Shown: piece after piece, positions 40,622 to 64,000 of the stretch
Numbering within the stretch: the stretch's first letter is position 1
Layout: every line of letters begins with the position of its first letter
Origin: Sphingomonas ginkgonis
Lineage (GTDB): Bacteria > Pseudomonadota > Alphaproteobacteria > Sphingomonadales > Sphingomonadaceae
NCBI RefSeq assembly: GCF_003970925.1
Contig: NZ_RWJF01000001.1
Span: 986,501 to 1,050,500 of the forward strand
DNA length: 64,000 bases
Reading direction: 5' to 3'
Made by a program: the position numbers and the translations under genes
Notes under the pieces: generated by a model
The model's input: the letters and a program-made list of their open reading frames with translations, nothing else
Databases searched by the model: none
What the model was told of the DNA's origin: nothing

Positions 40622-40670
40622 GATCACCTTATCGCCTTAATCCGCGCTTCGCCCAAGGGCAAGGCTGCGC

Positions 40671-41513
40671 CTACTCCGCCGCCTGGGGGACCTGCTGGGC
40701 GAGAATGATCTCGCCGAGCTCCACCGTCAGCCGCTCGAGCAGCCTGGCGCAGCGATCGAAGCCGGGCCCCGGCCGCCGCAGCGTTCGATCGAGGTAGCAG
40801 CTGCGGTCGATCTCCACCTGCAGCGCGTGGATCCCGCTGGAGGGGTTGCCGTGCCGTTCGCTGATCCAGCCACCGGCATAGGGATCATTGAAGCCGACCG
40901 CGAAGCCGGCGCTCTCGGCGATCCGGCGGGCGGGATCGGTGACCCAGCGGTCCGCGGATCGACCGTAGCGGTCGCCGAACACGATCTGCGGCTTGCCCCG
41001 GCGCGGCGGCGGCATGGAGTGGAGGTCGAGCAGCAGCGCCGCGCCATAACGACTGCGCAGTCGCGCAAGCTCGGCGGCGAGGGCGGCATGGTAGGGCGCG
41101 TGGGCGTGGGCGACGCGACGCGCGAAATCATCGGCGTCGACCAGCCCGCGCCACAAGGGTCCGGCAAGGACGCTCCGGCCGGGAACCACGCCCAGTCCGT
41201 GGCGCGCGCGATGGCTCGGTTCGGGGCAGGGAAGGGCCACCACGCTGGTGTCGATGTCCGCCGCGTCGCGGTTGCAGTCGATCCCGGCGCGCCCGGCGTT
41301 GGCGATCACCGCGGCCGGTCCGGCCCCGAGCGCGCGCCAGGCGAGCCGGTCGACCAGCGGGTCCTCGAGGCTTTCCAGCGCGGCGCGCCCGCTGGCCGCC
41401 CGGCGCAGCAGCCAGTCGGGATATTCGCGTCCGCTGTGCGGAACCGACAGGAGGACAGGCAGCCCGCCGGACGCGGCTATAATGGTGGGAGAAGGGAGCG
41501 TATCGGCAGCCAA
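40671..41513 (-). CDS. N-formylglutamate amidohydrolase family protein
   Basis: A 280-aa protein of the N-formylglutamate deformylase (HutG-like) family, which hydrolyses formylglutamate and related amides. Marks are VPHSGREYPDWLLRR, RAGIDCNRDAADID, the central LLLDLHSMPPPRRGKPQIVFGDRYGRS and ALQVEIDRSCYLD. No other hut genes are nearby, so the natural substrate is uncertain. It is divergent from cpdR, with 90 bases between starts. A terminator follows on the minus strand. Confidence 0.9.
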   Translation of the reverse strand: MAADTLPSPTIIAASGGLPVLLSVPHSGREYPDWLLRRAASGRAALESLEDPLVDRLAWRALGAGPAAVIANAGRAGIDCNRDAADIDTSVVALPCPEPSHRARHGLGVVPGRSVLAGPLWRGLVDADDFARRVAHAHAPYHAALAAELARLRSRYGAALLLDLHSMPPPRRGKPQIVFGDRYGRSADRWVTDPARRIAESAGFAVGFNDPYAGGWISERHGNPSSGIHALQVEIDRSCYLDRTLRRPGPGFDRCARLLERLTVELGEIILAQQVPQAAE

Positions 41514-46134: not shown

Positions 46135-46767
46135 TTACAACTCCGTGGCCTCGGCCAACGCCAATGCGTCTTCAACCTCGATCCCTAGGTAACGGACTGT
46201 TGTCTCGATCTTGGTATGGCCGAGCAGGATTTGAACGGCGCGCAGATTGCCAGTCTGCTTATAGATCAAGGCTGCCTTGGTGCGTCGGAGAGAGTGGGTA
46301 CCATATTCGTCCGGGCGCAACCCGATCGCAGTCACCGAGTCGTCGACTAGGCGGGCGTATTGTCGAGTACTTAGGTGCGCGAGCCTGTCCGTTCGGCTGG
46401 GGAAAACATACTCCTCAAGGGAGCCTCCGCGCCTCTCAAGCCACTGAAGCAAGCTGGTGCGGGCTGGCTCCAGAAGCTCGAACTGTACCGGCCGGCCGGT
46501 CTTCTGCTGAATGACGATTGCCCGTTGACGAATGCGCGCTCCGCTGACGAGCTCTTCGATCTTGATCTTCACAAGATCGCAACCGCGCAGCTTGCTGTCG
46601 ATCGCGAGGTCAAAGAGCGCTCGGTCACGGAGGCGATGCTCCTGCTCCAGAAAGAAGCGCACGGCCCAAACCTGCTTGGGTAGGAGCGGCCGCTTGGCGC
46701 CGAGCTTCCGGCCAACATTCCACGCAGGACGGTCTTCCCAACCGGGATCGTAGATTGCATGTCCCAT
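46135..46767 (-). CDS. Short tyrosine-type recombinase/integrase
   Basis: A 210-aa protein containing only the catalytic domain of a tyrosine recombinase. The six catalytic residues can be read: Arg in SKLRGCDL, Lys in QQKTGRP, HxxR in HSLRRTKA, His in LLGHTKIETT and Tyr in VRYLG. The N-terminal SAM-like DNA-binding domain is missing or reduced, but short integrases of this size are known in alphaproteobacteria. Its position at the end of the tRNA-Val-bounded segment suggests it took part in the transfer of these genes; no att repeat was found. ATG at 46767. Confidence 0.88.
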   Translation of the reverse strand: MGHAIYDPGWEDRPAWNVGRKLGAKRPLLPKQVWAVRFFLEQEHRLRDRALFDLAIDSKLRGCDLVKIKIEELVSGARIRQRAIVIQQKTGRPVQFELLEPARTSLLQWLERRGGSLEEYVFPSRTDRLAHLSTRQYARLVDDSVTAIGLRPDEYGTHSLRRTKAALIYKQTGNLRAVQILLGHTKIETTVRYLGIEVEDALALAEATEL

Positions 46768-47393: not shown

Positions 47394-50300
47394 ATGAGCG
47401 TTCATCACACTCTCGAGGTGGTCCTCGATCGCTTTTGCTCGCACGTTGATCTCAGCGCCATTTCATCTCGCCAGAAGGCGGAGGCGCTTCGCGAGATAGC
47501 CGACCTCCGTCCGCTGCTAAGCGCCCGGTATCCCGCCCTCGCCTCGCCGCTCGCACGTCTTGAGGCGGAACTGCGCCGGGCCTCGACCTCGCCGACCGGC
47601 AACCGTCGTGCGGTGCGGAAACTGAGGCGTATCCTCCGCCTGCTCGTTCCTCTGTCGCTCGGCGCGGCGTCGGCCGGACTGATCGGCGCAGTTCCGGCAT
47701 TTGCCAACTACACCCCCATCCCGGTGGGTGGGACCGTGTTCAACCCGGTAACCCGGGCCGACGAGAAAGTCGTTGAGATCATCGGGGCCGGCTATGCGGT
47801 TCGGACCGACCAGGATCACATCATCTTCCTCGCGACGGCGGTCGGCGATACCTATTCGGTGACCAGCAGCACCGGCGTGACCACCAGCTACAAGGTCACT
47901 GCGGTCAGCAAGACGACCTATGGCACCGGTCAGTCGGCCGTAACCTATGTGACGGGCGTCACCGTCGAGGACAGCAGCAAGACATCGTCGACGATCCCCG
48001 TCGTTTCGAGCATCTCCTACACCGTCCCGGCGGTCGGTGGCGCAGACGGGACCGGAGTCGTTTTCCCGGCCTTCCCGGTTCCGGCCGGCAACGAGCAGTT
48101 TTCCGACGTCCGCGCTGGGGCCAATGGTAGCAAGGGCAGCGACGGCGGCGGCATTCGGGTCTGCGTTCCTCTGACCGACATCTGCGGAATCATCGGCTAC
48201 GGTGGGAGCGCCGGAGGCAATGGGGCAACTGGGCCGACCTTCACCAGCACTGTTCCCGCAACCTATTCGGGCGGTCTGATCAGCAGCACGGCGGACAATC
48301 TGCCGGGCATCCAGATCGCCAGCATCGGCGGCACTGGCGGACAGGGCGGGGCGGCCTACGGCAATTTCGACGCCCAGCCCGGCGGCGCGGCCGGCAACGG
48401 CGGCAACGTCACCGGCATCAACTATGTCGACGTTTCGACCTCCGGCAAGAACAGCTACGGCATGTGGGTCTTCTCGCAGGCCGGTGCCGGCGGTGCGGGC
48501 GGCGGCGCCTTCATCCTGGGCAGTGGCGGCGGTGGCGGCGGGGCGGCGTCCGGCGGATCGGCGACCGGTCAGAACTACGGCTCGCTGACCACCCAAGGCG
48601 TGAATGCAACCGGTCTTCTGGTGCAGAGCCTTGGCGGCGCGGGCGGGTCCGGCGGCTCCAGCTACGGGATTGTCGGCTCAGCGGGGTCCGGCAGCGTCGG
48701 CGGCAATGGGGGCAATGTCACCGCCTATAACGCCGGGACGATCCTGACCCGCGGCACCTTTGCGAACGGAGTCGAGGCCCAGTCGATCGGGGGAAATGGC
48801 GGCAGCAGCGGAGATGCCGGCGGCATCGTCGCGTTCGGTGCGACCGCCGGCGGCGCCGGGACGGGCGGCAACGCGACCATCACGCTCGACTCGACCAGCG
48901 ACGTCACCACCGCGGGCAATTACGCTCACGGCGCGTTTGCGCAGAGCGTCGGCGGCGGCGGCGGATCGACCGGCTTTATCGGCGGCGCGGTCAGCTTCGG
49001 CGGCTCGGCGGGCATCGGCGGCACGGGCGGTCAGGTCAACGTCAACACCATTGCCGGTTCTTCGATCACCACCTTCGGCATCGGATCCTACGGCATCTTC
49101 GCGGAGTCCGTCGGCGGAAATGGGGGCACGGCGGCCGGCACGGGCGGCGTCTTCACCATGGGCGGGAGTGGCGGCTCCGGGAATACAGGTGGCAATGTCA
49201 CTGTCGCCAGCAATGGCGCGATCACGACCTACGGCACCGATTCCCGGGGCATCTTCGTGCAGTCGGTTGGCGGTGGTGGCGGCAACGCCAACACCTCCGG
49301 CGGCGTCGTGTCGCTGGGAGGCACCGGTGGCAGCGGTGCGAACGGCGGCACCGTCAAGGTAACGCTCGGAAGCAGCAGCGATGTTTCCACCGCAACCAAG
49401 GGGAGCGACGGCGTGTTCGCGCAGTCGGTCGGCGGCGGCGGCGGCGCGGGTGGGACCTCCGGTGGCCTTGTGGCGCTCGGCGGCAGCGGCTCGGTTGGCG
49501 GCCAGGGAGGGCAGGTCAGTGTCAGCAATGCGGGTGTGATCACGACCGGCGGCGCCTATTCGCGCGGCATTTTTGCCGAGTCGGTTGGCGGTGGCGGCGG
49601 CAGCGGCGGTGACGGCTATGGCCTCGCGGCAATCGGCGGCAGCGGCAGCGCGGCCGGAGCCGGCGGCAACGTCAGCGTCGACAACAGCGGCTCGATCGCC
49701 ACGCAGAAGAACATGTCGGCCGCGATGCAGGCGCAATCGGTCGGCGGCGGCGGCGGCGACGGCGGGACGACCGGCGGCGTGCTGCTGACGATCGGCGGCT
49801 CGGGTGCGGGGGGCGGTGTCGGTGGCACGGTGATCTCGAACATGTCGGGCACGCTCGAGACCCATGGCAACGACTCCATGGGTCTGTTCGCGCAGTCGGT
49901 TGGCGGCGGCGGCGGCAATGGCGGTTCGTCGACTTCGGTCAGCCTGTTCGCCGGCCTCGCGCTCGGTGGCAGTGGCGCGGGCGGCGGCGCGGGTGGCGTG
50001 GTCACCGCCAACTTCTTCGAGCGGTCGCTACTCGTAAACGGAAGTCCGCAGCTCGTGCTGCCCTCGATCGTCACCTCGGGCGACCGCTCGGGCGGCGTCC
50101 TTCTGCAGTCCATCGGCGGCGGCGGCGGGAACGGCGGCATGGCCGTCCAGGTCTCTGCCGGTCTGTTCGGCGCGGCGAGTTTCGCGCTCGGCGGAAGCGG
50201 GGGTGCTGGCGGTACCGGCGGGGTAGTCACCGCAAACGGCAAGGTCGCCATCAGCACGGCGGGCGACAATTCGTCCGGCTTCTTCGCGCAATCGGTCGGC

Positions 50301-53300
50301 GGCGGCGGCGGCAGCGGCGGCGCGTCGGTTGCGGTGGCGGCGTCCGTTGGAGTGGGCGCAAGCGCGTCCCTGGCGGTGTCGCTCGGCGGAAGTGGCGGGA
50401 GCGGCGGTGCTGGCGGCACGGTCAATGTGAACAGCGGCGGTTCGATCCTGACCACCGGCGCCTATTCGACCGGCTTCGTGGCCCAGTCGGTCGGCGGCGG
50501 CGGTGGCAAGGGCGGTTTCTCCGTCAGCGTCGCGGGGGCGGGAAGCAGTTCCATCGCCATTGCGGGCGGTCTGGGAATTGGCGGCAGCGGCGGCAAGGGC
50601 GGCGTGGGCGGCAACGTCACCGCGTCCTTCGACGGCGATATCGACACGGGCGGCATGGACGGCCAAGGTCATGATTCCGGCGGCGCGCTGATCCAGTCGG
50701 TCGGCGGCGGCGGCGGCGGCGGCGGGTTCAACGTGACGGCGGCGGTCTCGCTTTCCGGCGCGGCGGCGGGTGCCGCCGCGGTCGGTCTCGGTGGCACTGG
50801 CGGCGATGGCGGCGTCGGCGGGACCGTGATCGGCAGCGTTGGCGGGAACGTCGTTACGCACGGCGTCAAGTCGACCGGTGTCCTCATCCAGTCGGCCGGC
50901 GGTGGCGGCGGCAGTGGCGGCTTCAACGTCAGCGGCACGGTCAGCTTGGGTGGAGCGGTCAGCGGCGGGATTCAGGTTGGGCTTGGCGGCGCGGGCGGCG
51001 GCGGCGGCAATGGCGGGACCGTGACCGGTTCGGCGCTCGGAACGGTTCAGACCTTCCAGGCGCAGTCCGACGGCGTGGTGATCCAGTCGGTCGGTGGCGG
51101 CGGCGGCAGCGGCGGATTCAACGTCAGTGGTGGGATCGCCCTTGGCGGCACCGGAGCGCTGGCGATCGGCGTTGGCCTTGGTGGCAACGGCGGCGGAGCC
51201 GGCAGCGGCGGGATCGTCACCGGTACTGTGGACGACGTGGTGACGACGAGTGACGACCAGTCGCGCGGAATCGTCATCCAGTCGGTCGGTGGCGGCGGCG
51301 GTGCCGGTGCCTTCAACGTCACTGGCGGCCTCGCCGTTGGCGGAACCGCGGGCGGCGCCATCGGAGTCGGGTTGGGGGGCAACGCCGGCGGCGGCGGAAG
51401 TGCGGATATCGTCACTGCGACGGTTCGATCCGTGCACACCATGGGTGACGACTCCACCGCCTTCGTCGCGCAGTCGGTCGGCGGCGGCGGCGGCATTGGC
51501 GGGTTTAACGTAACCGGCACGCTCGGCATCGGCGGCACGGGCGGCGGGACCGCGTCCATCGGCCTTGGTGGCAGCGGCGGCAGCGGTGGCTCGGCCAAGA
51601 AGGTCACCGCCAGCCTGACCGGCGTGGCATCGAGCGGGGGCGATCGCTCGGGGGCCATCCTCGCCCAGTCGATCGGTGGCGGCGGCGGCGCCGGAAGCTT
51701 CAACATCAGCGCTGGGATCGCGGCCGGGGGAACGGGCGCGGGAACGCTCAACATCGGTCTTGGCGGCTCCGGCGGAACCGCGGGAGTTGGCGGCGATATC
51801 GATCTGACCGTCGCGGGCTACGCGATCACGGACGGCATGGAGTCGGACGGCATTGTCGCGCAGTCGGTCGGCGGTGGCGGCGGCAACGGCGGATTCACCA
51901 TTTCCGGCGGGATCGCGGCGGCCGGTACTGGTGCCGGTCAGGTCGGCTTCGGGCTTGGTGGTCGCGGCGGTGGCGGTGGCCATTCGGGCGACGTCAGCCT
52001 GACCCTCAACGGAGGGGCGACCACGAACGATCTCGATCGTGCCGCGGCGATCACGACCCACGCCTTCAGCAACGGCATTATCGTCCAGTCGCTCGGCGGG
52101 GGCGGCGGCAACGGCGGCTTCAACGTCACCGGCGGAGCGAGCTTCGCGGGCACGGGCGCCGGCGGGGTCAATATCGGGATCGGCGGCTCCGGCGGGGCCG
52201 GTGGCTACGCGATGGCTGCCAAGGCCGACATCAGCGGCTACACGCGGACGAGTGGTGACGAGAGCGTCGCCATCCTCACCCAGTCAATCGGCGGGGGCGG
52301 TGGCAATGGCGGCTTCTCGGTGACCGGCGGGCTGACGGTCGCGGGGACCGGCTCGGGCACGCTCAACATCGGGATCGGCGGAGCCGGCGGAACCGGCGGC
52401 AAGGCCGGCGACGCGACCCTCAAGGTCAATGCCGGCATCGTGGATCCGGCGCAGCAGCTCATCGCGGCGGTCACGGGCGGTGATCACTCCGACGCGGTGG
52501 TGGTGCAGTCGCTCGGCGGCGGCGGCGGCAACGGCGGGTTCAACGTCACCGGCGGGATCAACATCGCCGGAAGCGGTTCCGGCGGCGGCAACATCGGCAT
52601 CGGCGGCATGGGCGGCGACGGCGGCATGGCTGGAAACGCCACCGCCGATATCACCGGCGGCATCGCCACGAGCGGGTTCGATTCCGACGGCGTGATTGTC
52701 CAGTCGATCGGCGGTGGTGGCGGCAACGGCGGCTTCGACGTCAGCGGCACGCTCTCGGTCGCGCGCAACAGCGGAGCGCTGAGCGTCGGTGTCGGCGGGT
52801 TCGGCGGCAATGGCGGTCAGGCGGGCGATGCTCGCCTCGATTTGAACCAGCGCACCAGCGACCCGCTCAACACGCTTGCCGCGGTGTCGACCGTTGAGGC
52901 GGAGGCCTCCGGTATCATCGTCCAGTCGCTCGGCGGCGGCGGCGGCAACGGCGGCTTTAACGTGACCGGCAGCATGAGCTTCGCTCAGGGCGGCGCCGGT
53001 AACCTCGGGATCGGTGTCGGCGGCTTCGGCGGAGACGGTGGCTTGGCCGGACAGGCAACCGCGAACGTGCGCGGTGACCTCGTCACTATCGGCGCCAGTT
53101 CAGGCGCCCTGCTTGTCCAGTCGATTGGCGGTGGTGGCGGCAATGGCGGCTTCAATGTCACTGCTGGCCTCACCGGATCGAAGGGCGCCAACGGAAACAT
53201 CGGGATCGGCGTCGGCGGTTTCGGCGGCACCGGTGGCGACGGCCAGGCCGTTCACGCCAAGGTCGAAAGCGATATTCAGACCTCTGGCGCGGAGAGCTTC

Positions 53301-56300
53301 GGCGCGACGATGCAGTCGCTCGGCGGCGGCGGCGGCAACGGCGGGTTCAACGTCACCGGCGGGGTGGCGCTGACCATCGGCCAGGGAGCCAACGGCAACT
53401 TCGGCTTCGGGATCGGCGGCTTCGGCGGCGATGGCGGCGACGGCGGGACCGTCACTATCGACCTGACCGGCAACATCCAGACCGTCGGCAAGAAGAGCTA
53501 CGGCATCCTCGTCCAGTCGCAGGGCGGCGGCGGCGGCGGCGGCGGGTTCAACGTCACCGGTAGCCTGTCTGCGAGCAAGGGCTCAAACGGCTCGATGGGC
53601 GTCGGTATCGGCGGCTTTGGCGGGCTTGGCGGCGACGGCAAGCTGGTCACCGCGTCGATGACCGGAAACATCCTGACCCAGGGTAACGAAGCATACGGCG
53701 CCACCTTCCAGTCGCTCGGCGGCGGCGGCGGCGACGGGGCGTTCAACGTCACCGCGGGCATCAGCCTTGCCCTCGGCTCTGGCACGGCCGGCAACCTCAA
53801 CATCGGCATCGGCGGCTTCGGCGGCGGCGGCGGCACGGCCGGCGACGTGATCGGCAGCCTCTTCGGCAACGTCCAGACGCACGGCGCCGACGCCCACGGC
53901 ATCCTCATTCAATCGCTCGGCGGCGGCGGCGGCAACGGAGGCTTCAACGTCAGCGGCGGAATCGCGCTGGCGAAGGGGACGACGGGTTCGGTCGGCTTCG
54001 GTCTCGGCGGTTTCGGCGGCGACGGCGGTGACGGGGGGATCGTTACCGGAACGCTCGCCGGCAACGTCAACACCAGCGGCCCGGGAAGCTACGGCGCGAT
54101 GATCGAGAGCGTCGGCGGTGCCGGCGGCAATGGCGCGCTGAACGTCACCGGCGGGCTGACCATCTCGAAAGGCGACTCTACGTCCGGCGCGGTGTCGATC
54201 GGCATCGGCGGATTCGGCGGTGGCGGCGGAAATGCGAAGGCGGTGACGGCGGACGTTCGCGGGACGTATGTGGCCGAGGGTCCGCTGTCGCCGGGTGTCG
54301 TCGCGCTCAGCCTCGGCGGCGGCGGCGGTGCCGGCGGGCTCAACGTCTCGGGCTCGATTGCGGTATCGACTGCCGGGACCGGCGCCGGAGTTGCGCTCGG
54401 GCTTGGCGGTTTCGGCGGCGACGGCGGAAATGCCGGCGATGTCACGCTCGTCCGCGTCGGCGAGACCGTCACCCGGCAGAGCAATTCCGATGGTGTCGTC
54501 GCTGCGTCGATCGGCGGCGGCGGTGGGCGCGGCGGGCTCAACGTGTCGGGCGGAATCGCCGCGACCAACACCGGCAACGCGGGAACGGTCACGATCGGGA
54601 TCGGTGGCTTTGGCGGCGGCGGCGGAGACTCCGGGATCGTCAACGCGACGATCGTCGACAGCGTACGGGCATTGGGCAGCGACGGCCCGACCAGCTTCTT
54701 GCCGGAAAACAGCATCATTGCCGGTAACGACATTACGTTCGGTGCGAAGACCCATCTTCTCAACGGGTCGAACGGGATCGTGGTCGAATCGCTTGGCGGC
54801 GGTGGCGGCTCGGGCGGCATGAACATCAGCGGCGGCATTTCGCTCGCCAAGTCGGACGACCAGTCGACCGGAAGCGCGCTCGTCCTCGGGATGGGCGGAT
54901 TCGGCGGTGGCGGCGGCGACGCCGAGATGGTCAACGCGACGGTTGGCCAGCCCTCGGGCGAGCGCATCCGGGTCCAAGGTACCGGCGACACCAAGTCGGC
55001 CGTGCTCGTCGCCTCGGTTGGCGGGGGCGGCGGCGACGGCGCGATGAACATCTCCGGCGGGATCACCACCGACGGGTCGGTCGTCGCCGGCTTCGGCGGT
55101 GCTGGCGGCGGCGGCGGCCTCGGCCGCGCGGTGACGGCCAGCGTCAACGCCGATTTGTTTGCGAGCGGCTACAAGTCGAGCGGCCTGACCGTGCAGTCGG
55201 TCGGCGGCGGCGGCGGCACCGGCGGGATCAATATCTCGGGCGGCCTCAAGCCGCTCGCCCGGAGCGAGCCGGTCATCACCTTCGGCATGGGCGGTGACGG
55301 CGGCACCGGCAATTCGTCGGGCGACGTCACCGTCCAGCAGGATGGCGAGGTGCTGGTCGATGGCTTCAACTCGCACGGCGTGCTGGTCCAGTCGGTAGCC
55401 GGCGGCGGCGGCAGCGGCGGGATGGACATCGTTGCCGACGTCAACCGCTCCGAGGGCGACTCCAAGATCGACGGCTTCGCGGCCGGGATCGGCATCGGCG
55501 GGACCGGTGGCAGCGGCGGGTCCGCGGGCAATGTCAGCCTCCGCAGCACCGGCAACGTGCTCGTCAACACGATCGTCGGCGTGGCGGCCGACGGCTCGGC
55601 GACCCTCAGCGCGAGCAACGAAGCGGGCATCTCGACCGGCGTCGCCGCTCAGTCGATCGGCGGCGGGGGCGGCTCGGGCGGCTTCAACATTGTCGGCATC
55701 TTCGCCCCCAAGGGTAATCCGGTCAGCTTCTCGATGGGCGGCAGCGGCGGCGTCGGCGGCGACGCGGGAACCGTCACGGTCCGTCGTGGCTATGCCGAGA
55801 CCGGCGCAATCGATGCGTCGCTGATCAACACCTTCGGACCCGGTTCGGTCGGGTTGCTCGCCCAATCGATAGGCGGCGGCGGCGGCAATGCCGGGACCAA
55901 CTTCTCCTTTGCCAAGGGCAGCACGAAGGCCGACCAGACCGGCTTCGGCGGGCAGATCGTCATCGGCGGCGATGGAGCGACCTCGGGCGACGGCAAGGCC
56001 GTCGGGGTCGATCATGTTGGGTCGATCCAGACCAACGGGATTGGCAGCAGCGGGCTGGTCGCCCAGTCGATCGGCAAGGGCGGCGGTAACGCGGCGCTCA
56101 ACGTCGGCGTGATGCTGCTCGGCGAGGATACCAAGTTCCGGGGGGACTCGACCAAGACCTCGACCGTCAACGGTTTCTCGATGGCGATTGGCGGCGCGGC
56201 AGGCGACGCGGGCTCGGCAGGCGACGTGACCGTCAACCACAACGGCACGATCGTCACCCAGGTCGCGCTCTCCAACGGGCTGGTGGCGCAGTCGCTCGCA

Positions 56301-59300
56301 GGCGGCGGCGGCAATGTCGCGTTCAACGCCGGCGCCTTGCTTGGCGCGGACAACAACCTCAAGATCTCGATCGGCCGCGAAGGCGGCAAGGGCGGCACCG
56401 CCGGGAAGGTCATCGTCAACGCGAGCGGCCAGATTCTCGTCTCCGGGGACAAGAGCAATGGAATCGTGGCGCAATCCGTCGGCGGCGCCGGCGGGATGAG
56501 CGGCAGCATCTCGGTCAGCGGTCAGTTCCGCGACGGCTCCGGAACGTCCTCGACGAACAATGGCGCAGCGGTTTCGATCGGCCTTGATGGCGCGGCGGGC
56601 GGTCACAGCTCCACCGTGACCGTTACAAATGCGGCGCTCATCACCACCAATGGCGAGAGCGCCCGCGGGATCGTCGCCCAGTCGATCGGCGGGGACGGCG
56701 GAATCGCGGGATCCGCGCGCACGACTACCACCGACCAGACCGACAGCGTGGCCGTCGTGGTCGGCGGCGGCGGTGGCGCCGGCGCCCAGTCGGAAAAGGT
56801 GACCGTCTCGAACAACGGGACCATCATCACCAAGGGCGTGACGAGCGACGGTATCCTGGCGCAATCTGTCGGCGGGAGCGGCGGTGTCGGTGGTTCGGCG
56901 TCGACCATCAAGCCCTACACCAAAGGCCTTAGCGACAAGTCGGCAACGACCATTGCCGTGACCGTTGGCGGGAGCGGCGGCGACGGCTCGGTGGCCGGCG
57001 ATGTCGAGGTTCGCAACGACGGGATCATCTCGACCGAAGCCGATATTTCGTTCGGCATCCGCGCCCAGTCCATCGGCGGCGGCGGCGGGGTCGGAGGCGC
57101 GACCTACAACATCGAGACCCAGCTCGCGCGGGACATTAACACGATGAACCTGTTGATTGGCGGGGGCGGCGGCAACGGCCAGCTCGCCGGCCGGGTCGAC
57201 GTGTTCAACCATGGCCTGATCCAGACCACCGGTGCCGGCTCGATCGGGATCAGTGCCACGTCGGTTGGCGGCGGCGGTGGCGACGCGGGTTCGGTCTCAA
57301 ACTCGTCGACCTTGATCAACAGGAACGGCGGGCAGACCAACGCGCTTCAGATCCTGATCGGCGCTGGTGGCGGCTCGGGCGGGAAAAGCGGCATCGTCAA
57401 TGTCGTCAATTCACCGACCGGCGGGATAGACTCGGGAACCATCATCACCACCGGGAAGGCGGCGCATGGCATCTTTGCGCAGAGCCTCGGCGGCGGCGGC
57501 GGTAATGGGTCGTCAATCCTCGATGCCACCATCAGCAATGGCGCGAAGGGTAGCATTTCGGTCGGGGTAAGCCTCGGCGGGGGCGGCGGCGACGGCAACC
57601 CCGGCGGCGATGTCACCGTTGCGAACAGCGGGCTGATCCACACCAGTGGCGAAGGGAGCTTCGGCATTCTCGCGCAGTCGATCGGCGGCGGCGGCGGCAA
57701 CGGGGGACTGACGCTGTCCGCCAACCTCCTGCTCAGGTCGAGGGACAAGTCTCCGCTTATTTCGCTCGGCGGGATCGGCGGCAATGGCAATGATGGCGGG
57801 CATGTCACCGTTTCCAACAGCGGCGAGATCATTACCAAGGGCAAGAACGCCGATGGCATTGTCGCCCAGTCGATCGGCGGTGGCGGCGGAAGTGCCGGCT
57901 TCGCGGTCGCGCTGACGGGCGAGCTGAAGACCCTCGTCGCGTCAAACCTGCTCGGCATTCTGGTCGGGTCCGAAGGCGGCGGAAGCTCGGGGCTTGGCGG
58001 ACAGGTGGACGTTGTTCACAGCGGCGATATCACTGTGCTCGGCGAAGGCTCGCAGGCGATCGTCGCCGAAAGCATCAACGGCGGCGGCGGCCATGTCAGC
58101 TTCGAGATCACCGGAATCGCGGTGCCCTCGCTGTCTGGCGCGCTCCCGTCCGGGCTCGTGCTCCCCGACCTCTATTCGCTGAATGGCCTCCCCAACCTAG
58201 TCGCGGGCGAGCCGGTCAACAAGCCGGTCGACCCGGTCATCGTCGCCGCGCGCGTCGGCGCATCGGATGCGAGCAAGCTCAACGGCGGCAATGTCAACAT
58301 CACCGTCACCGGCACCTTGGGCGCGGCCGGTGACTTCGCCAAGGGTACGACCATCCGCTCGGTAGGCGGCGGCGGCGGCGCGCTGACGATCAGTGGATCG
58401 GTGGTCGATGCCGATGCGACGATCGCCGGTGATGTCAGCGCTCAGGCGATCTATGCGGTCGGCCTCGGCGCCAAGGACAGCAACGACAGCTCCGGCGCAG
58501 CGCTGGTCAGCAATCATAGCGGCGAGATCGTCACCACCGGCAAGGCTGCCGACGGCGTCCTCCTCCAGTCGATCGGCGGCGGTGGCGGAAGCGCTTTGGT
58601 CAATCTCACCACCGAGGACCCGGCGCTCATCGACAGCGTCCGGCTCGGCCTGGGCGCGGTCAACACTTCGGACTCGTCGGGCGGCGCGGTCACGCGGACC
58701 CAGACCGGCGCCGTGGTGACCACCAACGATCTTGCGCACGGCGCCGTGATCCAGTCGATCGGCGGGGGCGGCGGTGAGGCGATCGCGAGCGTGCGGCGCG
58801 CCGACCAGGCGTCCCCACCGGTCGACGCCTCGGCGGTCGCCACCGGCCAGCATGTGCAGGGCTGGAAGCAGACCCTGGCGGTCGACAACGGCGCTGGTAC
58901 AGCCGGGATCGTCTCGCTCGGCGCCACCGGCGGCAGCGGCAATGACGGGGCTGCGGTAACCCTCTCCTTCACGGGCGGGTTCGCGACGCTAGGCGACCAT
59001 GCGAACGGCCTTGTCGTCCAGTCGATCGGCGCGGGCGGCGGTGCCGTCACGCTCGACGGGATGGGGGCAAGTTCGATCCTGCTCGGCGGGCAGGCGAACG
59101 CAGCGGGCTCCGCGGGCGCGGTGACCGTCGTCAACAACGGGACGGTGATGACTGCCGGGCAGGGTGCCAACGGCATCCTCCTCCAGTCGATCGGCGGCGG
59201 CGGCGGCGCGGTGTTCAACCCCGGCGCGGGTTCGACCGTCACCCTATCGGCTTCGAACAGCGGCGATGGCGGCACGATCACCCTCAACCAGACGGGCGAC

Positions 59301-61307
59301 TTGCTGGTCACGGGCGCGAACGCCACCGGAATCCTAGCGCAGAGCCTTGGCGGCGGCGGCGGCTATGTCGAAGGCCTGTTCGCGGGCACGGCCGGCGGCT
59401 CCGGGCGAGCCAACGCGACCTCCCTCGGCGTGAATGGCGCGGTGCTGGCCACCGGCCTGAACTCGACCGCCATCGTGGCGCAGAGCGTCGGCAGCCTTGG
59501 TGGCGGCGACATCACTGTCTCGGCGGCGGGCGCGATCCGCGGCGGCAGCGGGACGGGAGCAGGCATCGCCCTCGCCGGGGGCGCGAACAATGTCGTCACC
59601 ATTCAGAACAGCCTTTCCTCAGTGTCTGGCCTGGCCCTGACGGGAACGTTCGGCAACGATCGGCTCGAGAACAACGGCCTGACCGTCGGGAACATCGATC
59701 TCGGCTCCGGCAACAACCTCGTGCACAACGCCGCCGGCGCGACCTTCCTGACCATCGATACGCTCAACCTGCGGAGCGGGGCGGGCAGCACCGGCGCCTT
59801 CCAGAACGACGGTAACCTGCTGCTCGGGTTGGGCGCCAGCCGCTACCCGCTGGACCTGCTGCATGGCGCCACCTTCGCGCCTCCGACGATCACGGATCCG
59901 CGCAACGACCTGCTTAATGGTACGTCGGTGATCAGCACCGTCGCGCTGAACGGCGACTTCCGTCAGTCGGCGACTGGGGTCATGAACTACGACGTGGCTT
60001 TCGGGCCCTATGCCAGCGACCGGATCAACGCGACCGGCACAGCGGTCGTCAATGGCACGGCGAACATCACGCTCACCTGGCTGGAGAACAACAATCCGTT
60101 GACGCTGATCGCAGCGGCGGGCGGCGGCACCGACCTCGGCCTGAAGCCGGTGGACACGCTGGCAATCGATTACGGGATCCTCGCCAACTCGACCGGTATC
60201 CAGCTGACCCTCACGCCGAACTTCGGTCTGCCTTGGCTGTCGGCCAACCAGCGGCAGATCGGGCACAATCTCGACTCCTCGGTCGAGGTCGGCGGCGCAG
60301 CGCAGATCGGGCGGCTGCTGACACTGCTCGGCAACCTCACCGCCGGGCAGGAGCAGGTTTACGCCGACATCTTCCGCGAACTGGGTCCCGAGGCCTTGCT
60401 GACGCCCGTGATCGAGCAGCTGGATGCCGCGCGTGACTTCAGCTCCAACGTCCTGGACTGCGATACTCGGCCCACTCGCGCGGGCCTGTGCCTGTTCGGA
60501 CAGGTGGAGACGCATCGCCTGAGCCGTTCGCGTGGGTCGATGGACGTGGCCGTGGATATGCCGGCGCGCCTGCGCTTCGGCGGGGCGGCGGCGATCGGTG
60601 GCGGCTGGCAGATCGGCGCCGCGGTCGGGGTTGCCCGTGAGGGCGAGCTTCACGCCGACGGGGGACGGTTCGTCGGCAAGGACGGGCGCAACTTCAACGC
60701 CGGTATCGGGGTGGAGAAGCATTTCGCGGGAGATGATGGCGTGTTCGGGCTGGCGCTGGCCGCCGGTAGCCAGCGCTTCCCGACGACCCGCTACCAAGAC
60801 ATCTTCGCGCCTGGCTTTGGCGATGCGACGATCCGAACCGAATACCGCGGCGCGGATGCGAAGCTCGGCTACCGCTTCTCGGCGGGGACCTTCTTTGCCC
60901 GGCCCGAGCTCGAGCTCCAGGGTATCCGCATGTCCTTCAAGAGCTTCTCGGAAGAGGGGCTCCAAGGCACCGGTGCGCGCAGCGTCGGGTCGAGCCGCTG
61001 GTATCTTTCGGCAACCCCGAAGGTCAGCGCCGGCCTGGACACTGGCCCGCTTAAGCTGTTCGGAACGGTTGGCTACCAGTTCGCTAACAAGGGCCAGATC
61101 GTCGCTCCGCTGCGGCTGGTCGGCGCGCCCGACGCGTCGGACCCGGCCCGCATCGCCACCGCGATCGACAAGCAGACGATGCTGCTTGGCCTGACCGCCG
61201 AGGCGAAGGCGGGCGACCGTGCGACGCTGCAGTTCGGCTTCACCGGGCTCTACGGCGACCATGTCACGAGCAAGAGCGCGAACATGAAGCTGATCTTCCG
61301 CTTCTAA
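47394..61307 (+). CDS. Giant Gly-rich type V autotransporter (4,637 aa)
   Basis: One uninterrupted 13.9-kb gene. Residues 1-74 are an unusual charged extension (MSVHHTLEVVLDRFCSHVDL), then a signal peptide (about 75-104, LRRILRLLVPLSLGAASAGL and ending PAFA). Residues about 105-350 are unique. From about 359 to 4030 the passenger consists of some 57 degenerate units, mostly 65 aa, each built on QS(V/I/L)GGGGGNGGFNVTGG, a run G(I/L)GG.GG.GG, and then a threonine/isoleucine-rich strand that ends with the next QS motif. This suggests a beta-helix (inference). Residues about 4050-4350 have beta-helix-like text with NNLVHNAAGATF, then two Cys (VLDCDTRPTRAGLCLFG) and a C-terminal autotransporter beta-barrel ending in KLIFRF, the aromatic-terminal assembly signal. 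Start ATG 47394 follows gaaagaag. The product is expected on the cell surface. Function unknown; adhesion or aggregation is plausible for the family. Confidence 0.9.
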   Translation: MSVHHTLEVVLDRFCSHVDLSAISSRQKAEALREIADLRPLLSARYPALASPLARLEAELRRASTSPTGNRRAVRKLRRILRLLVPLSLGAASAGLIGAVPAFANYTPIPVGGTVFNPVTRADEKVVEIIGAGYAVRTDQDHIIFLATAVGDTYSVTSSTGVTTSYKVTAVSKTTYGTGQSAVTYVTGVTVEDSSKTSSTIPVVSSISYTVPAVGGADGTGVVFPAFPVPAGNEQFSDVRAGANGSKGSDGGGIRVCVPLTDICGIIGYGGSAGGNGATGPTFTSTVPATYSGGLISSTADNLPGIQIASIGGTGGQGGAAYGNFDAQPGGAAGNGGNVTGINYVDVSTSGKNSYGMWVFSQAGAGGAGGGAFILGSGGGGGGAASGGSATGQNYGSLTTQGVNATGLLVQSLGGAGGSGGSSYGIVGSAGSGSVGGNGGNVTAYNAGTILTRGTFANGVEAQSIGGNGGSSGDAGGIVAFGATAGGAGTGGNATITLDSTSDVTTAGNYAHGAFAQSVGGGGGSTGFIGGAVSFGGSAGIGGTGGQVNVNTIAGSSITTFGIGSYGIFAESVGGNGGTAAGTGGVFTMGGSGGSGNTGGNVTVASNGAITTYGTDSRGIFVQSVGGGGGNANTSGGVVSLGGTGGSGANGGTVKVTLGSSSDVSTATKGSDGVFAQSVGGGGGAGGTSGGLVALGGSGSVGGQGGQVSVSNAGVITTGGAYSRGIFAESVGGGGGSGGDGYGLAAIGGSGSAAGAGGNVSVDNSGSIATQKNMSAAMQAQSVGGGGGDGGTTGGVLLTIGGSGAGGGVGGTVISNMSGTLETHGNDSMGLFAQSVGGGGGNGGSSTSVSLFAGLALGGSGAGGGAGGVVTANFFERSLLVNGSPQLVLPSIVTSGDRSGGVLLQSIGGGGGNGGMAVQVSAGLFGAASFALGGSGGAGGTGGVVTANGKVAISTAGDNSSGFFAQSVGGGGGSGGASVAVAASVGVGASASLAVSLGGSGGSGGAGGTVNVNSGGSILTTGAYSTGFVAQSVGGGGGKGGFSVSVAGAGSSSIAIAGGLGIGGSGGKGGVGGNVTASFDGDIDTGGMDGQGHDSGGALIQSVGGGGGGGGFNVTAAVSLSGAAAGAAAVGLGGTGGDGGVGGTVIGSVGGNVVTHGVKSTGVLIQSAGGGGGSGGFNVSGTVSLGGAVSGGIQVGLGGAGGGGGNGGTVTGSALGTVQTFQAQSDGVVIQSVGGGGGSGGFNVSGGIALGGTGALAIGVGLGGNGGGAGSGGIVTGTVDDVVTTSDDQSRGIVIQSVGGGGGAGAFNVTGGLAVGGTAGGAIGVGLGGNAGGGGSADIVTATVRSVHTMGDDSTAFVAQSVGGGGGIGGFNVTGTLGIGGTGGGTASIGLGGSGGSGGSAKKVTASLTGVASSGGDRSGAILAQSIGGGGGAGSFNISAGIAAGGTGAGTLNIGLGGSGGTAGVGGDIDLTVAGYAITDGMESDGIVAQSVGGGGGNGGFTISGGIAAAGTGAGQVGFGLGGRGGGGGHSGDVSLTLNGGATTNDLDRAAAITTHAFSNGIIVQSLGGGGGNGGFNVTGGASFAGTGAGGVNIGIGGSGGAGGYAMAAKADISGYTRTSGDESVAILTQSIGGGGGNGGFSVTGGLTVAGTGSGTLNIGIGGAGGTGGKAGDATLKVNAGIVDPAQQLIAAVTGGDHSDAVVVQSLGGGGGNGGFNVTGGINIAGSGSGGGNIGIGGMGGDGGMAGNATADITGGIATSGFDSDGVIVQSIGGGGGNGGFDVSGTLSVARNSGALSVGVGGFGGNGGQAGDARLDLNQRTSDPLNTLAAVSTVEAEASGIIVQSLGGGGGNGGFNVTGSMSFAQGGAGNLGIGVGGFGGDGGLAGQATANVRGDLVTIGASSGALLVQSIGGGGGNGGFNVTAGLTGSKGANGNIGIGVGGFGGTGGDGQAVHAKVESDIQTSGAESFGATMQSLGGGGGNGGFNVTGGVALTIGQGANGNFGFGIGGFGGDGGDGGTVTIDLTGNIQTVGKKSYGILVQSQGGGGGGGGFNVTGSLSASKGSNGSMGVGIGGFGGLGGDGKLVTASMTGNILTQGNEAYGATFQSLGGGGGDGAFNVTAGISLALGSGTAGNLNIGIGGFGGGGGTAGDVIGSLFGNVQTHGADAHGILIQSLGGGGGNGGFNVSGGIALAKGTTGSVGFGLGGFGGDGGDGGIVTGTLAGNVNTSGPGSYGAMIESVGGAGGNGALNVTGGLTISKGDSTSGAVSIGIGGFGGGGGNAKAVTADVRGTYVAEGPLSPGVVALSLGGGGGAGGLNVSGSIAVSTAGTGAGVALGLGGFGGDGGNAGDVTLVRVGETVTRQSNSDGVVAASIGGGGGRGGLNVSGGIAATNTGNAGTVTIGIGGFGGGGGDSGIVNATIVDSVRALGSDGPTSFLPENSIIAGNDITFGAKTHLLNGSNGIVVESLGGGGGSGGMNISGGISLAKSDDQSTGSALVLGMGGFGGGGGDAEMVNATVGQPSGERIRVQGTGDTKSAVLVASVGGGGGDGAMNISGGITTDGSVVAGFGGAGGGGGLGRAVTASVNADLFASGYKSSGLTVQSVGGGGGTGGINISGGLKPLARSEPVITFGMGGDGGTGNSSGDVTVQQDGEVLVDGFNSHGVLVQSVAGGGGSGGMDIVADVNRSEGDSKIDGFAAGIGIGGTGGSGGSAGNVSLRSTGNVLVNTIVGVAADGSATLSASNEAGISTGVAAQSIGGGGGSGGFNIVGIFAPKGNPVSFSMGGSGGVGGDAGTVTVRRGYAETGAIDASLINTFGPGSVGLLAQSIGGGGGNAGTNFSFAKGSTKADQTGFGGQIVIGGDGATSGDGKAVGVDHVGSIQTNGIGSSGLVAQSIGKGGGNAALNVGVMLLGEDTKFRGDSTKTSTVNGFSMAIGGAAGDAGSAGDVTVNHNGTIVTQVALSNGLVAQSLAGGGGNVAFNAGALLGADNNLKISIGREGGKGGTAGKVIVNASGQILVSGDKSNGIVAQSVGGAGGMSGSISVSGQFRDGSGTSSTNNGAAVSIGLDGAAGGHSSTVTVTNAALITTNGESARGIVAQSIGGDGGIAGSARTTTTDQTDSVAVVVGGGGGAGAQSEKVTVSNNGTIITKGVTSDGILAQSVGGSGGVGGSASTIKPYTKGLSDKSATTIAVTVGGSGGDGSVAGDVEVRNDGIISTEADISFGIRAQSIGGGGGVGGATYNIETQLARDINTMNLLIGGGGGNGQLAGRVDVFNHGLIQTTGAGSIGISATSVGGGGGDAGSVSNSSTLINRNGGQTNALQILIGAGGGSGGKSGIVNVVNSPTGGIDSGTIITTGKAAHGIFAQSLGGGGGNGSSILDATISNGAKGSISVGVSLGGGGGDGNPGGDVTVANSGLIHTSGEGSFGILAQSIGGGGGNGGLTLSANLLLRSRDKSPLISLGGIGGNGNDGGHVTVSNSGEIITKGKNADGIVAQSIGGGGGSAGFAVALTGELKTLVASNLLGILVGSEGGGSSGLGGQVDVVHSGDITVLGEGSQAIVAESINGGGGHVSFEITGIAVPSLSGALPSGLVLPDLYSLNGLPNLVAGEPVNKPVDPVIVAARVGASDASKLNGGNVNITVTGTLGAAGDFAKGTTIRSVGGGGGALTISGSVVDADATIAGDVSAQAIYAVGLGAKDSNDSSGAALVSNHSGEIVTTGKAADGVLLQSIGGGGGSALVNLTTEDPALIDSVRLGLGAVNTSDSSGGAVTRTQTGAVVTTNDLAHGAVIQSIGGGGGEAIASVRRADQASPPVDASAVATGQHVQGWKQTLAVDNGAGTAGIVSLGATGGSGNDGAAVTLSFTGGFATLGDHANGLVVQSIGAGGGAVTLDGMGASSILLGGQANAAGSAGAVTVVNNGTVMTAGQGANGILLQSIGGGGGAVFNPGAGSTVTLSASNSGDGGTITLNQTGDLLVTGANATGILAQSLGGGGGYVEGLFAGTAGGSGRANATSLGVNGAVLATGLNSTAIVAQSVGSLGGGDITVSAAGAIRGGSGTGAGIALAGGANNVVTIQNSLSSVSGLALTGTFGNDRLENNGLTVGNIDLGSGNNLVHNAAGATFLTIDTLNLRSGAGSTGAFQNDGNLLLGLGASRYPLDLLHGATFAPPTITDPRNDLLNGTSVISTVALNGDFRQSATGVMNYDVAFGPYASDRINATGTAVVNGTANITLTWLENNNPLTLIAAAGGGTDLGLKPVDTLAIDYGILANSTGIQLTLTPNFGLPWLSANQRQIGHNLDSSVEVGGAAQIGRLLTLLGNLTAGQEQVYADIFRELGPEALLTPVIEQLDAARDFSSNVLDCDTRPTRAGLCLFGQVETHRLSRSRGSMDVAVDMPARLRFGGAAAIGGGWQIGAAVGVAREGELHADGGRFVGKDGRNFNAGIGVEKHFAGDDGVFGLALAAGSQRFPTTRYQDIFAPGFGDATIRTEYRGADAKLGYRFSAGTFFARPELELQGIRMSFKSFSEEGLQGTGARSVGSSRWYLSATPKVSAGLDTGPLKLFGTVGYQFANKGQIVAPLRLVGAPDASDPARIATAIDKQTMLLGLTAEAKAGDRATLQFGFTGLYGDHVTSKSANMKLIFRF
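52086..53120 (+). repeat. Higher-order long/short unit repeat inside the autotransporter
   Basis: Measured from the cag/caa of each QS motif, spacings here are 195, 225, 195, 222 and 195 bases, i.e. 65, 75, 65, 74 and 65 residues. The longer units contain an insert with similar text (LTLNGGATTNDL, LKVNAGIVDPAQ, LDLNQRTSDPLN) and are followed by QSL, while the shorter ones are followed by QSI. A two-unit block of about 420 bases has thus been copied. From 53118 on, spacing settles to 195-201. Confidence 0.75.
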
Positions 61308-61833
61308 CGGCAAGCATCAGCTAGCCACGAAGAGACGAGCAGAGGCGGAGGAGCGGCTGAAATCCCTCCTCCTCACCTCGATGCGGGCCCTCTGCTCCTG
61401 GCAGACAGCCGGCGCTCGACTTGACGTCTTCGAACGACTGCTTGAGGGTTTTCACGATGTCACCGTGAACGTTGGCACGGGGTCTCTCCTACCTCAGCCA
61501 GCCTCGATGAACGATCGTCCGTTTACGGGCGACAGGAAGCCGAGCCTCAGCGTCCAAGAATGGGTCTTTTCAGACGCCAGAACTTGCAAACCAAGCGTCT
61601 TCTTCATGGCTTCAGTCACCCCGAGAAAGCTGAGCCATTTGCCGCTAGGATCGTACAACGTGCGGCGAGCGGAGCGAAGGCTGATCCTAAAATCATCATT
61701 ATGCTTTCAGCTGGCCAAGCGGCCCGTTTGCGATAAATTTAAATCCGTCTCCGTGCCTTCGCGTGACCGCTTAGCCATAGACGTAAGCAGGAGTATCAAA
61801 GCCGGGCGAGCCGGCGAAACAGGGGCGACGAGC
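61308..61833. other. 526-base non-coding stretch before the TonB receptor
   Basis: No gene recognised in any frame. It holds a hairpin at 61342-61379 that may end the autotransporter transcript, a small hairpin ttcacg/cgtgaa at 61451-61469, and two AT-rich spots (61687-61702, cctaaaatcatcatta, and 61730-61745) where the receptor promoter and an iron-responsive site might lie. No clear Fur box could be defined. Confidence 0.5.
61342..61379 (+). terminator. Possible terminator hairpin of the autotransporter gene
   Basis: gagg-c-ggaggag (61342-61353) pairs with ctcctcc-tca-cctc (61366-61379) with a bulge. It starts 35 bases after the stop codon. No T-run follows. Confidence 0.4.
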
Positions 61834-64000
61834 ATGGAATCGATGAGCCTTCGCCGGTCGGATCTGCGCTGGAGCTTACTAGCGGGGGTGGCGCTGCTGA
61901 TCCCTGCGGTAGCATCGGCACAATCAACTCCGTCAATTCGAGAGCAACCCACCACGACAACCGACGCCGACCAAGATACGGCAGGCACAATCAAGACTGC
62001 CCGTACCGCTGACGGCGCGATTATTGTTACCGCCCGCAACTATGTTCCGCAGGGCGCGCAAGCGGCAAACAAGACCAACATCCCGCTAATCGAGACGCCG
62101 CAGTCGGTGTCGGTCGTCACCCGTGACCAGATCGATCTCCTGAACTTCACCGATGCGCAGCAGGCCGTCCGCTATACTGCGGGCGTGTTCGGAGAGAATT
62201 ATGGGCCGGACCTGCGGTTCGACTTCTTCACCGTCCGCGGCTTCACGCCCAAGCAGTATATCGACGGGTTGGCGGCGCCCATCTCCACGACGATCTACTC
62301 GGTCGGGCTCGACCTCTACGCTTTCCAGAGCCTCGAGCTGCTTAAGGGACCGGCTTCCGTCCTCTACGGCAATGCGCCCCCAGGCGGCATCTACAACGAG
62401 ACCAGCCGCCGCGCCGCCGATGAGCTGGGCGGCGAGCTGAACCTGAAATATGGCAGCTACGGTTACAAGCAGGTCTCAGGCACGATCACTGGCCCGCTTG
62501 CGCACGGGTTCGACGCGCGGCTGACCGGCCTCTATCTCGACCGGCACGCCGAGGTGGAGCATGTCCGCGACCGCCGAGCGCTGATCGCGCCCACCGCGAC
62601 CTGGACGATCGGCAGCAACACCAAGCTGACCGGGCTGGCCTATTATCAGAACGATCACATCCGCGGTGGAGGGCCCGGCTTTCTCCCGGTGCAGGGCACG
62701 CTGCTGCCCAACCCCAACGGCAAATTGTCGCACCGCACCAACCTCGAAAGCCCGGACTATCTCTACCGGCGCAACCAGTGGGGGGTCGGCTACGACTTCT
62801 TGCACCGGTTCGGGGCCGCAACCTTCCGGTCGAACGCCAAGTGGAGCCGCTACAAGGAAGCGACGCCGTACGGCGCCTACGACAGCGGCGGGTTCGTCAA
62901 CACGACTAACCCCGCGCTGCCGAACTATTTCCGCGACGTGACGATCTCCAACTTCACCTATCGCGAGCGGGTCAACAGCTTCGCGATCGACAACCGCGTG
63001 GAAGGAACGTTCGACACCGGCGCGATCCGCAACAAGTTCCTGGTCGGCGTCGATTACCGGAACGTTCGGAACGCGGCGGACTTCGGGTTCGATTTCGGGA
63101 TCGCGACGGTCAACGCCTACGACCCGGTCTGGCCGGCGCGCGCGGCCTCGGACTTCGGCTACCCGACCCGCTACAATCACCAGCGGCTGAAGCAGACCGG
63201 AACTTACGCCCAAGATCAGCTGAAGATCGGCAACTTCTATCTCCTCGCCGGGGCGCGCTACGATTGGGTGCGCAGCCGCTACCTCGACCCGTTCACTGCC
63301 GTGACTGCACCAGCGGGAACGAACCGCACCAGGGCAGAGAAGTTCACCTACCGCGTCGGCGGCAGCTATGTGACCCGCAGCGGGCTGGCGCCCTACATCA
63401 GCTACTCCACCTCGTTCGAGCCGCAGATCGGCGTCGACGGGACGACGAGCAAGGCCTTCAAGCCATCGACCGGCAAGCAGGTCGAGGGTGGGGTCAAGTA
63501 TGACGGGCGCGCACTGTCGCCAAACGTACGGGTCTTCGCGACCGCGGCCCTGTTCGACATCAAGCAGACCAACGTCGTCAGCACGACCCCGTCGGTCTCC
63601 CCGGTGTTCGGCACGCAGAGCGGCAAGGTCGAAGTCTATGGCGGCGAGCTGGAGTTCGTGGCTCGCATCCGCAACCAGCTCTCGTTCAATGGCAGCTACA
63701 GCTACAATCACAGCAGGGTTCTCGAAAGCAACACGGCGGCGGAGATCGGCCAGCCGCTGCCGACCACGCCCAAGCACAAGGCTTCGCTGTTCGGCGACTA
63801 TTCCTTTCAGAACGGCGCGCTTGCTGGCTTCGGTCTCGGTGGCGGAGTCCGCTACACCAGCAAGAGCGCGGGCAGCCTGCCCGGGCCCTTCAATCCCGTC
63901 GTTTATTACGGCCAGGCGGCAACCCTGTTCGACGCGATCCTCCACTACGATGCGCCGCATTACCGGGTGTCGCTGAACGGCTCGAACATCTTCGACAAGC
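61834..64000 (+). CDS. TonB-dependent siderophore receptor (3' end outside window)
   Basis: The frame is open from ATG 61834 to the window edge (722 codons). A signal peptide (LLAGVALLIPAVASAQ) is followed by a TonB-box-like IIVTARNY, the plug domain (PLIETPQSVSVVTRDQI, VRYTAGVFGENYG, FTVRGFTPKQYIDG, LELLKGPASVLYGNAPPGG) and beta-barrel strands (YKQVSGTITGPL, SVTRSGLAPYISYSTSFEP-type). The plug motifs PQSVSVVT and LKGPASVLYG are those of ferric-siderophore receptors of the FhuA/TIGR01783 type. The sequence ends near SLNGSNIFDK, which is usually 30-50 residues from the end, so little is missing. It takes up Fe-siderophores or similar chelates across the outer membrane, probably under Fur control. 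Confidence 0.93.
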   Translation, partial: MESMSLRRSDLRWSLLAGVALLIPAVASAQSTPSIREQPTTTTDADQDTAGTIKTARTADGAIIVTARNYVPQGAQAANKTNIPLIETPQSVSVVTRDQIDLLNFTDAQQAVRYTAGVFGENYGPDLRFDFFTVRGFTPKQYIDGLAAPISTTIYSVGLDLYAFQSLELLKGPASVLYGNAPPGGIYNETSRRAADELGGELNLKYGSYGYKQVSGTITGPLAHGFDARLTGLYLDRHAEVEHVRDRRALIAPTATWTIGSNTKLTGLAYYQNDHIRGGGPGFLPVQGTLLPNPNGKLSHRTNLESPDYLYRRNQWGVGYDFLHRFGAATFRSNAKWSRYKEATPYGAYDSGGFVNTTNPALPNYFRDVTISNFTYRERVNSFAIDNRVEGTFDTGAIRNKFLVGVDYRNVRNAADFGFDFGIATVNAYDPVWPARAASDFGYPTRYNHQRLKQTGTYAQDQLKIGNFYLLAGARYDWVRSRYLDPFTAVTAPAGTNRTRAEKFTYRVGGSYVTRSGLAPYISYSTSFEPQIGVDGTTSKAFKPSTGKQVEGGVKYDGRALSPNVRVFATAALFDIKQTNVVSTTPSVSPVFGTQSGKVEVYGGELEFVARIRNQLSFNGSYSYNHSRVLESNTAAEIGQPLPTTPKHKASLFGDYSFQNGALAGFGLGGGVRYTSKSAGSLPGPFNPVVYYGQAATLFDAILHYDAPHYRVSLNGSNIFDK

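Follow-up and report, generated by a model that had tools for sequence, protein, structure and literature searches.

Layout of the giant gene

The window, a 64,000-nucleotide stretch of the Sphingomonas ginkgonis genome, carries at 47394–61307 on the forward strand a single open reading frame of 4,637 residues that runs from ATG to stop with zero internal stop codons and very probably encodes a surface autotransporter. Its passenger is an array of about 57 glycine-rich units, for which structure models predict a hybrid of a polyglycine-II helix bundle and a β-helix, and its translocator may have been exchanged behind the constant passenger; this predicted fold, together with the exchangeable translocator, is the best new claim of the analysis. 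The protein is divided as follows.

47394–47705 (+), residues 1–104: charged leader of about 80 residues, predicted to be cytoplasmic, and a hydrophobic signal-like stretch (assigned from the sequence)
47706–48623 (+), residues 105–410: conserved N-terminal domain, the putative distal tip, with a VGxxVFNPxT motif and Cys257/Cys264 (shared alignment columns)
48624–59483 (+), residues 411–4030: array of glycine-rich units, the passenger body (motif counts and unit alignment)
48783–49895 (+), residues 464–834: seven short units of 52–54 residues without a β-hairpin (motif spacing)
49896–58070 (+), residues 835–3559: longer units of 61–94 residues, most with an inserted hairpin (FNVTGG...NIGIG; unit cutting)
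59484–60533 (+), residues 4031–4380: linker that travels with the barrel (switch in the identity pattern near residue 4030)
60534–61307 (+), residues 4381–4637 plus stop: C-terminal autotransporter β-barrel ending in Phe (PF03797 match at 60576–61241)

The barrel matched PF03797 over model positions 30–254 of 255 with 44.9 bits (cut-off 26) when the C-terminal piece was scanned, and the last residue is Phe. It was absent from a Pfam scan of the full 4,637 residues, appearing only with the C-terminal piece or in a PF03797 search of the genome, and was the sole match above cut-off among all pieces scanned (residues 1–330, 518–834, 1910–2106, 2967–3492, and 3560 onward). Array pieces gave no Pfam family above cut-off, residues 1–330, which cover the leader and much of the tip, gave none at an expect value (E) ≤1, so that no PE domain was detected there, and the whole protein matched zero NCBIfam families.

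A hydrophobic core starts at about residue 83, after the 80-residue extension, with A-x-A-like sites behind it; the signal-like stretch ends in P-A-F-A, where cleavage would be expected. The leader can be aligned among sphingomonad relatives, and a leader-only search of 120 genomes gave strong matches solely in G000 and G031, with six further matches at E 0.003–0.008, four of them containing stops. A crude hydrophobicity scan found a signal core in 107 of the listed proteins and placed it no earlier than residue 55 in 33 of them, a rough figure because the scan misplaces some cores (for example, in P0005 and P0007). Tip-domain columns are common to the N termini of 107 of the 120 listed proteins, and the Cys257/Cys264 pair is invariant in six of six rows of one alignment. 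The protein has five cysteines in total: one in the leader, the two of the tip, and two ahead of the barrel (4356 and 4366).

The gene lies on a contig of 3.1 Mb in a genome of two contigs. Collapse of the array during assembly is unlikely, because the closest pair of units is only 73% identical in DNA and just four distinct 50-mers recur within the gene; relatives of almost equal length, among the matches listed, occur on other contigs.

Glycine-rich repeat units

Glycine makes up 26.8% of the whole protein. The strict core QS[VIL]GGGGG occurs 34 times (mean 0.005 and maximum 1 in 200 residue shuffles) and the pattern GG.GG.GG 62 times (mean 1.7 and maximum 8, likewise in 200 shuffles), and a relaxed core, S[VILQ][GAN]G[GAKDSN]GG, has 56 matches in the protein. 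The array was cut into 54 units over residues 464–4030, preceded by degenerate ones, with the consensus SvGGGGGxGGfnvxg..(hairpin)..glGGxGGxGGxgGxVtvxxxGxixTxGxxSxGixaQ, in which the hairpin of the later units is inserted between the two glycine stretches. Unit spacing is 52–54 residues at residues 464–834 and afterwards mostly 61–75, often 65. An earlier, sequence-only reading of this DNA had described one unbroken frame of 13.9 kb, an autotransporter barrel with an aromatic end and a passenger built almost wholly of glycine-rich units, all of which the present analysis bears out. Its figure of about 57 copies of QS(V/I/L)GGGGG is fair as a number of units but wrong as a number of exact cores, and its spacing of about 65 residues is often seen among the later units but not in the first seven.

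Ser1 is found in 54 of 54 units, but the units were cut at that serine, and the cutting pattern also fixed two glycines within the first stretch; Gln65, present in 44 of the 54, could form a ladder. GGX triplet runs are present, and the register GGxGGxGGxGG is held across the 54 units, with N, S, D, T and G mixed at the x positions. In this second stretch the G columns are 74–99% identical among orthologs and the inner x columns 40–76%. The protein also contains 20 RTX-like GGxGxD strings, yet the period is 52–75 residues rather than 9 and the C terminus is a type V barrel. The motif GGFNVTGG is found in units at 50697–54506 and presumably resembles the speract peptide; one relative, P0046, bears the database name 'sperm-activating peptides family', probably a misnomer.

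Predicted fold of the array

Three longer units (53121–53711) were modelled first, with a predicted local distance difference test score (pLDDT) of 85.4, and four short units (49107–49736) second, with a pLDDT of 94.0 and a predicted template modelling score (pTM) of 0.85. Ten-residue blocks holding the glycine stretches average about 70–97 in the first model and 80–98 in the second. Glycine bundles were the best structure matches of both models, and β-helix proteins were matched too; the springtail antifreeze proteins (2pne/3bog and 7jjv) matched at 1.4–1.8 Å over 81 of 81 and 113 of 125 residues. The sequence-only reading had expected about three β-helix rungs per unit and had proposed modelling three consecutive units; the models suggest instead two polyglycine-II helices and about one β coil.

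According to these models, the units would stack as a hybrid solenoid, with roughly one coil for each. The stretches SxGGGGGxGG and GGxGGxGGxxG would make one polyglycine-II helix apiece, packing against those of adjacent units to give a bundle of two layers, and the other approximately 22 residues (VTVxxxGxIxTxGxxSxGIxAQ) would form one right-handed β-helix coil, as in other passengers. In the longer units the β-hairpin would connect the two glycine helices.

Several observations weigh against this fold. The hairpin blocks are of low confidence (pLDDT 58–72), and one of the five models of the second job reached just 76.8. The alignments behind both models were overlapping tiles from one protein, not independent homologs, and AlphaFold2 may over-predict glycine bundles in glycine-rich sequence. 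In Foldseek the top match of the first model had a probability of 0.08, and 7jjv matched the second with a probability of 0.85 and a query TM (template modelling) score of 0.20; of the Z scores, only that of 7jjv against the second model reached the level that the tool regards as safe for repeats, and the others lay below it. The assignment of one coil per unit is drawn from how many helices were matched and in which order, rather than from coordinates. Within the array, 92% of ortholog cells are identical at glycines (1,067 positions) and 60% at other residues (2,500 positions), and glycines in GG pairs are kept only slightly better than single ones (94% against 89%). The same kind of excess of glycine over other residues is found in the tip (87 versus 59%), linker (83 versus 52%) and barrel (65 versus 31%); glycine conservation was therefore dropped as proof of packing, and our odds for the hybrid fold were lowered slightly. 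On balance we consider the combination of polyglycine-II bundle and β-helix probable.

Searching the sequences of solved structures with the whole protein gave none at E ≤0.01, two matches only (E 0.24 and 4) came from a profile built on 32 three-unit tiles, and nothing useful was matched in a viral structure library. Tile sets of five units, and some of four, were discarded since MAFFT had placed overlapping tiles out of register.

Histories of repeats and barrel

A comparison of 20 top-match proteins, including that of the window, showed higher identity in the repeats than in the C-terminal 285 residues for 186 of the 190 pairs. With P0005 the window protein shares 73% identity over the repeats and 32% over the barrel; with P0021 the values are 58% and 54%. 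The relation along the protein changes near residue 4030, where the array ends. In the C-terminal tree seven proteins, the window's among them, form one group with a support of 100. The tree of the repeats (residues 411–1700) breaks up the seven and places P0012 with P0003, P0007, P0011, P0015 and P0016 (support 99).

Approximately unbiased tests spoke against a single group of the seven in the repeats (p = 0.0115) and against the group of P0012, P0003, P0007, P0011, P0015 and P0016 in the C terminus (p ≈ 1e-49, or 1e-60 without P0016); in the repeats they also rejected P0006 with P0016, a pair in the C-terminal tree (p = 5e-5), and P0012 with P0020 and P0021 (p = 0.012). These p values are nominal, the groups having been chosen after identities or trees had been seen; both trees are quick ones, with P0006 on a long branch in that of the repeats. 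A group of eight that was first tested on the C terminus was set aside, as it had been chosen by identities and is no clade of the repeat tree. A barrel that merely diverges fast would account for the low identity but not for the conflict between the trees. We propose that the translocator, comprising linker and barrel, may have been exchanged behind a constant passenger, the opposite of the usual pattern.

Relatives, age and distribution

Eight relatives of 4,633–4,674 residues, picked from the top matches, are 63–68% identical to the window protein along the full length. Units at the same position in orthologs are on average 70% identical, compared with 48% for neighbours within the protein and 38% for all pairs; each unit has its own identity, and the array is therefore no recent expansion. 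Against the gene of G031, a genome assigned to the same genus, the nonsynonymous rate (dN) is 0.234 and the synonymous rate (dS) 0.69 in the repeats, whereas in the barrel a dN of 0.80 is close to a dS of 0.89; for the whole gene dN is 0.278 and dS 0.74. Open frames of 4.7–5.1 thousand residues are found in G031, G059, G598 and G459. As judged from its relatives, the gene is real and old. A G533 relative (G533:C1, about 2237996–2238528; L010, L015) has its N-terminal domain divided between two frames of 250 and 4,889 residues, through either a break or a sequencing error.

With residues 1100–2100 as the query, 850 matches at E ≤1e-10 were obtained among 1,587 proteins scored (length 0.55–1.75 times that of the query), and with residues 3226–4125, aimed at shorter proteins, 2,300 among 7,985; only candidates sharing most words were scored in these searches, and details come from the best 120 of each. 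Names among the matches listed include Sphingomonas, Novosphingobium, Paracoccus, Ruegeria, Brevundimonas and Caulobacter, together with Steroidobacteraceae, Prosthecochloris, Rubritalea and Prochlorococcus. The protein does not stand alone but has hundreds to thousands of relatives.

The N-terminal 310 residues had a match in 3 of 61 relatives, own genome included (2 of 37 within the genus). Of 298 genomes in the family, a tip-domain profile matched 7, counting the window's own, and in a set of 289 from the class it matched that genome alone; a four-unit profile (E ≤1e-20) matched 4 of 190 class genomes, again counting the window's own. These are minimum counts because the genome searches use a first-look filter. 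Distribution is patchy among the genomes searched.

Genomic neighbourhood

Two genes lie close to the giant frame.

46135–46767 (−): tyrosine recombinase of 210 residues, about 630 bases upstream (PF00589)
61381–64000 and beyond (+): TonB-dependent receptor, the next frame past the giant gene (PF00593, PF07715)

The receptor is followed by a PD40/amidohydrolase protein, and antisense to it lies an open reading frame of 494 residues (62476–63960, −) with no Pfam match. At 39871–41513 (−) a TrcR-like cell-cycle regulator (PF06242) stands beside an N-formylglutamate amidohydrolase (PF05013). In the flanks of the genes in G000, G031, G598, G459 and G059 (10 frames) there was no shared partner except TonB-dependent receptors, a common family with members close by in G000 and G059. 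The locus had been proposed as a candidate for an undescribed surface system: the giant autotransporter stands, but 'system' is too strong, as no shared partner gene was seen in the flanks scanned. A 92% identical recombinase copy adjoins the giant gene in G031. A mobile-element explanation was dropped, as 93% identical copies in G010, G016 and G020 have no glycine-rich frame in the stretches fetched, and it is also weakened by related copies being common in the genus.

Proposed architecture and alternatives

A giant type Va (self-secreting) autotransporter with a hybrid glycine ribbon is the explanation that we favour by a little over even chances. The barrel would release the chain, and folding coil by coil would yield a rigid ribbon of about 27 nm (57 units at approximately 4.8 Å per coil, the rise of a β-helix) that keeps the N-terminal domain at a distance from the cell. 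An adhesive or scaffold role is a tentative suggestion, with attachment or cell–cell contact its likeliest form. That all elements hold jointly has close to an even chance: a new solenoid in which a polyglycine-II bilayer and a parallel β-helix are built in register from one chain about 57 times over, each molecule stacking upwards of 100 glycine helices, with wide occurrence in proteobacteria and presence in some further phyla, a constant passenger and a swapped translocator. If so, many proteins labelled just 'autotransporter' share a fold uniting two known architectures, and the retention of so much glycine is explained. A rigid glycine ribbon would be made through simple type V export, a material-like protein with testable mechanics, and natural translocator exchange behind a fixed passenger would be useful for asking how freely barrels swap.

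The glycine stretches could instead be flexible loops or springs between ordinary β-helix rungs, making the passenger a floppy bristle. Glycine-rich stretches are often disordered, the hairpins of the long units are modelled poorly, and the better retention of glycine in every region of the protein means that array conservation alone proves no packing. The confident glycine blocks of both models, a register held over 54 units while x varies and the slightly better kept GG pairs speak against such a bristle, which we regard as unlikely. An ordinary right-handed β-helix with about three rungs per unit, in which the glycines are just tight turns and the length is about 80 nm, seems improbable: a 65-residue unit would accommodate three rungs of 21–22 residues and β-helix proteins were matched, but glycine bundles were the best matches of both models and units of 52 residues hardly have room for three rungs. 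For a gene that is dead or an artefact, its frame open just through GC-rich composition, one could cite antisense frames of up to 1,209 residues, because of which openness alone is weak evidence, and the high barrel dN. This explanation is barely credible given the end-to-end identity with eight relatives, a whole-gene dN far under dS and the long open frames of four other genomes.

Two alternatives concern function. Many copies of the protein might tile the outer membrane as a protective coat or decoy that binds no target, an arrangement for which the long, regular array and the better conservation of repeats than barrel would be suitable, and the autotransporter Hsr is reported to make a ring array in Helicobacter mustelae (excerpt of PMC2846917); the protein's own conserved N-terminal domain suggests a functional tip, and we rate a coat a minority prospect, although the strongest of the rivals. 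An ice-binding adhesin working like the springtail antifreeze proteins would fit their rank as best solved-structure matches. A shared fold, however, says nothing on function, the bundle being found also in Obg, acetophenone carboxylase and a phage tail tip (excerpt of PMC8409303), the mixed x positions offer no flat, regular face and a cold theme is not evident in the names among the matches listed, all of which makes ice binding very improbable.

Comparison with known systems

The open-access literature searched held no description joining autotransporters with polyglycine-II helices; unit strings yielded nothing there, and no description was recognisable as this unit class. The word 'autotransporter' is absent from the main text of PMC13243192 and PMC8409303. 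The view that the units are not a characterised class agrees with these results and with the array's lack of a Pfam or NCBIfam match, but the class is not rare: as far as seen it is uncharacterised, yet common.

Classical type Va autotransporters, with Vag8 and Fap2 as solved β-helix examples, have the same barrel type. Unlike them, the window protein has a predicted polyglycine-II bundle in each unit, 4,637 residues, a leader of about 80 residues and a passenger more conserved than its barrel. Springtail antifreeze proteins (snow flea 2pne/3bog, Granisotoma 7jjv), among the proteins with polyglycine-II bundles in the excerpt of PMC8409303, resemble it in the predicted glycine-rich polyproline/polyglycine-II helix bundle. 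They are small arthropod proteins with solved chains of 81 and 125 residues, whereas here the bundle would be joined to a β-helix and repeated about 57 times; kinship is not claimed.

Mycobacterial PE_PGRS proteins, for which polyglycine-II is predicted (excerpts of PMC9436101 and PMC13243192), are likewise bacterial surface proteins whose glycine triplets are modelled as a large polyglycine-II sandwich (PMC9436101, excerpt). They differ in having a PE domain and type VII secretion, where the window protein would use type V, and the excerpt of PMC9436101 describes the PGRS sail with no mention of a β-helix. The giant protein of PMC5156944 is, in the excerpt, type I secreted. Helicobacter mustelae has autotransporters named as glycine-rich, and an autotransporter of 4,094 residues (PMC2846917, excerpt), likened here by description only. 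Autotransporters of Bartonellaceae from Dolichoderus ants also have 50-residue tandem repeats, with function unstudied and alpha- and gammaproteobacterial relatives, but are 326–1,066 residues long; they too are likened by description, and kinship is just a lead (PMC6044324, excerpt). The closest counterpart is the database set named 'autotransporter outer membrane beta-barrel domain-containing protein', whose 120 listed members have the same kind of units, 23–30% glycine and similar length; by sequence comparison, the window protein belongs to this set, which is uncharacterised and includes proteins of Sphingomonas, Novosphingobium, Ruegeria, Brevundimonas, Paracoccus and others.
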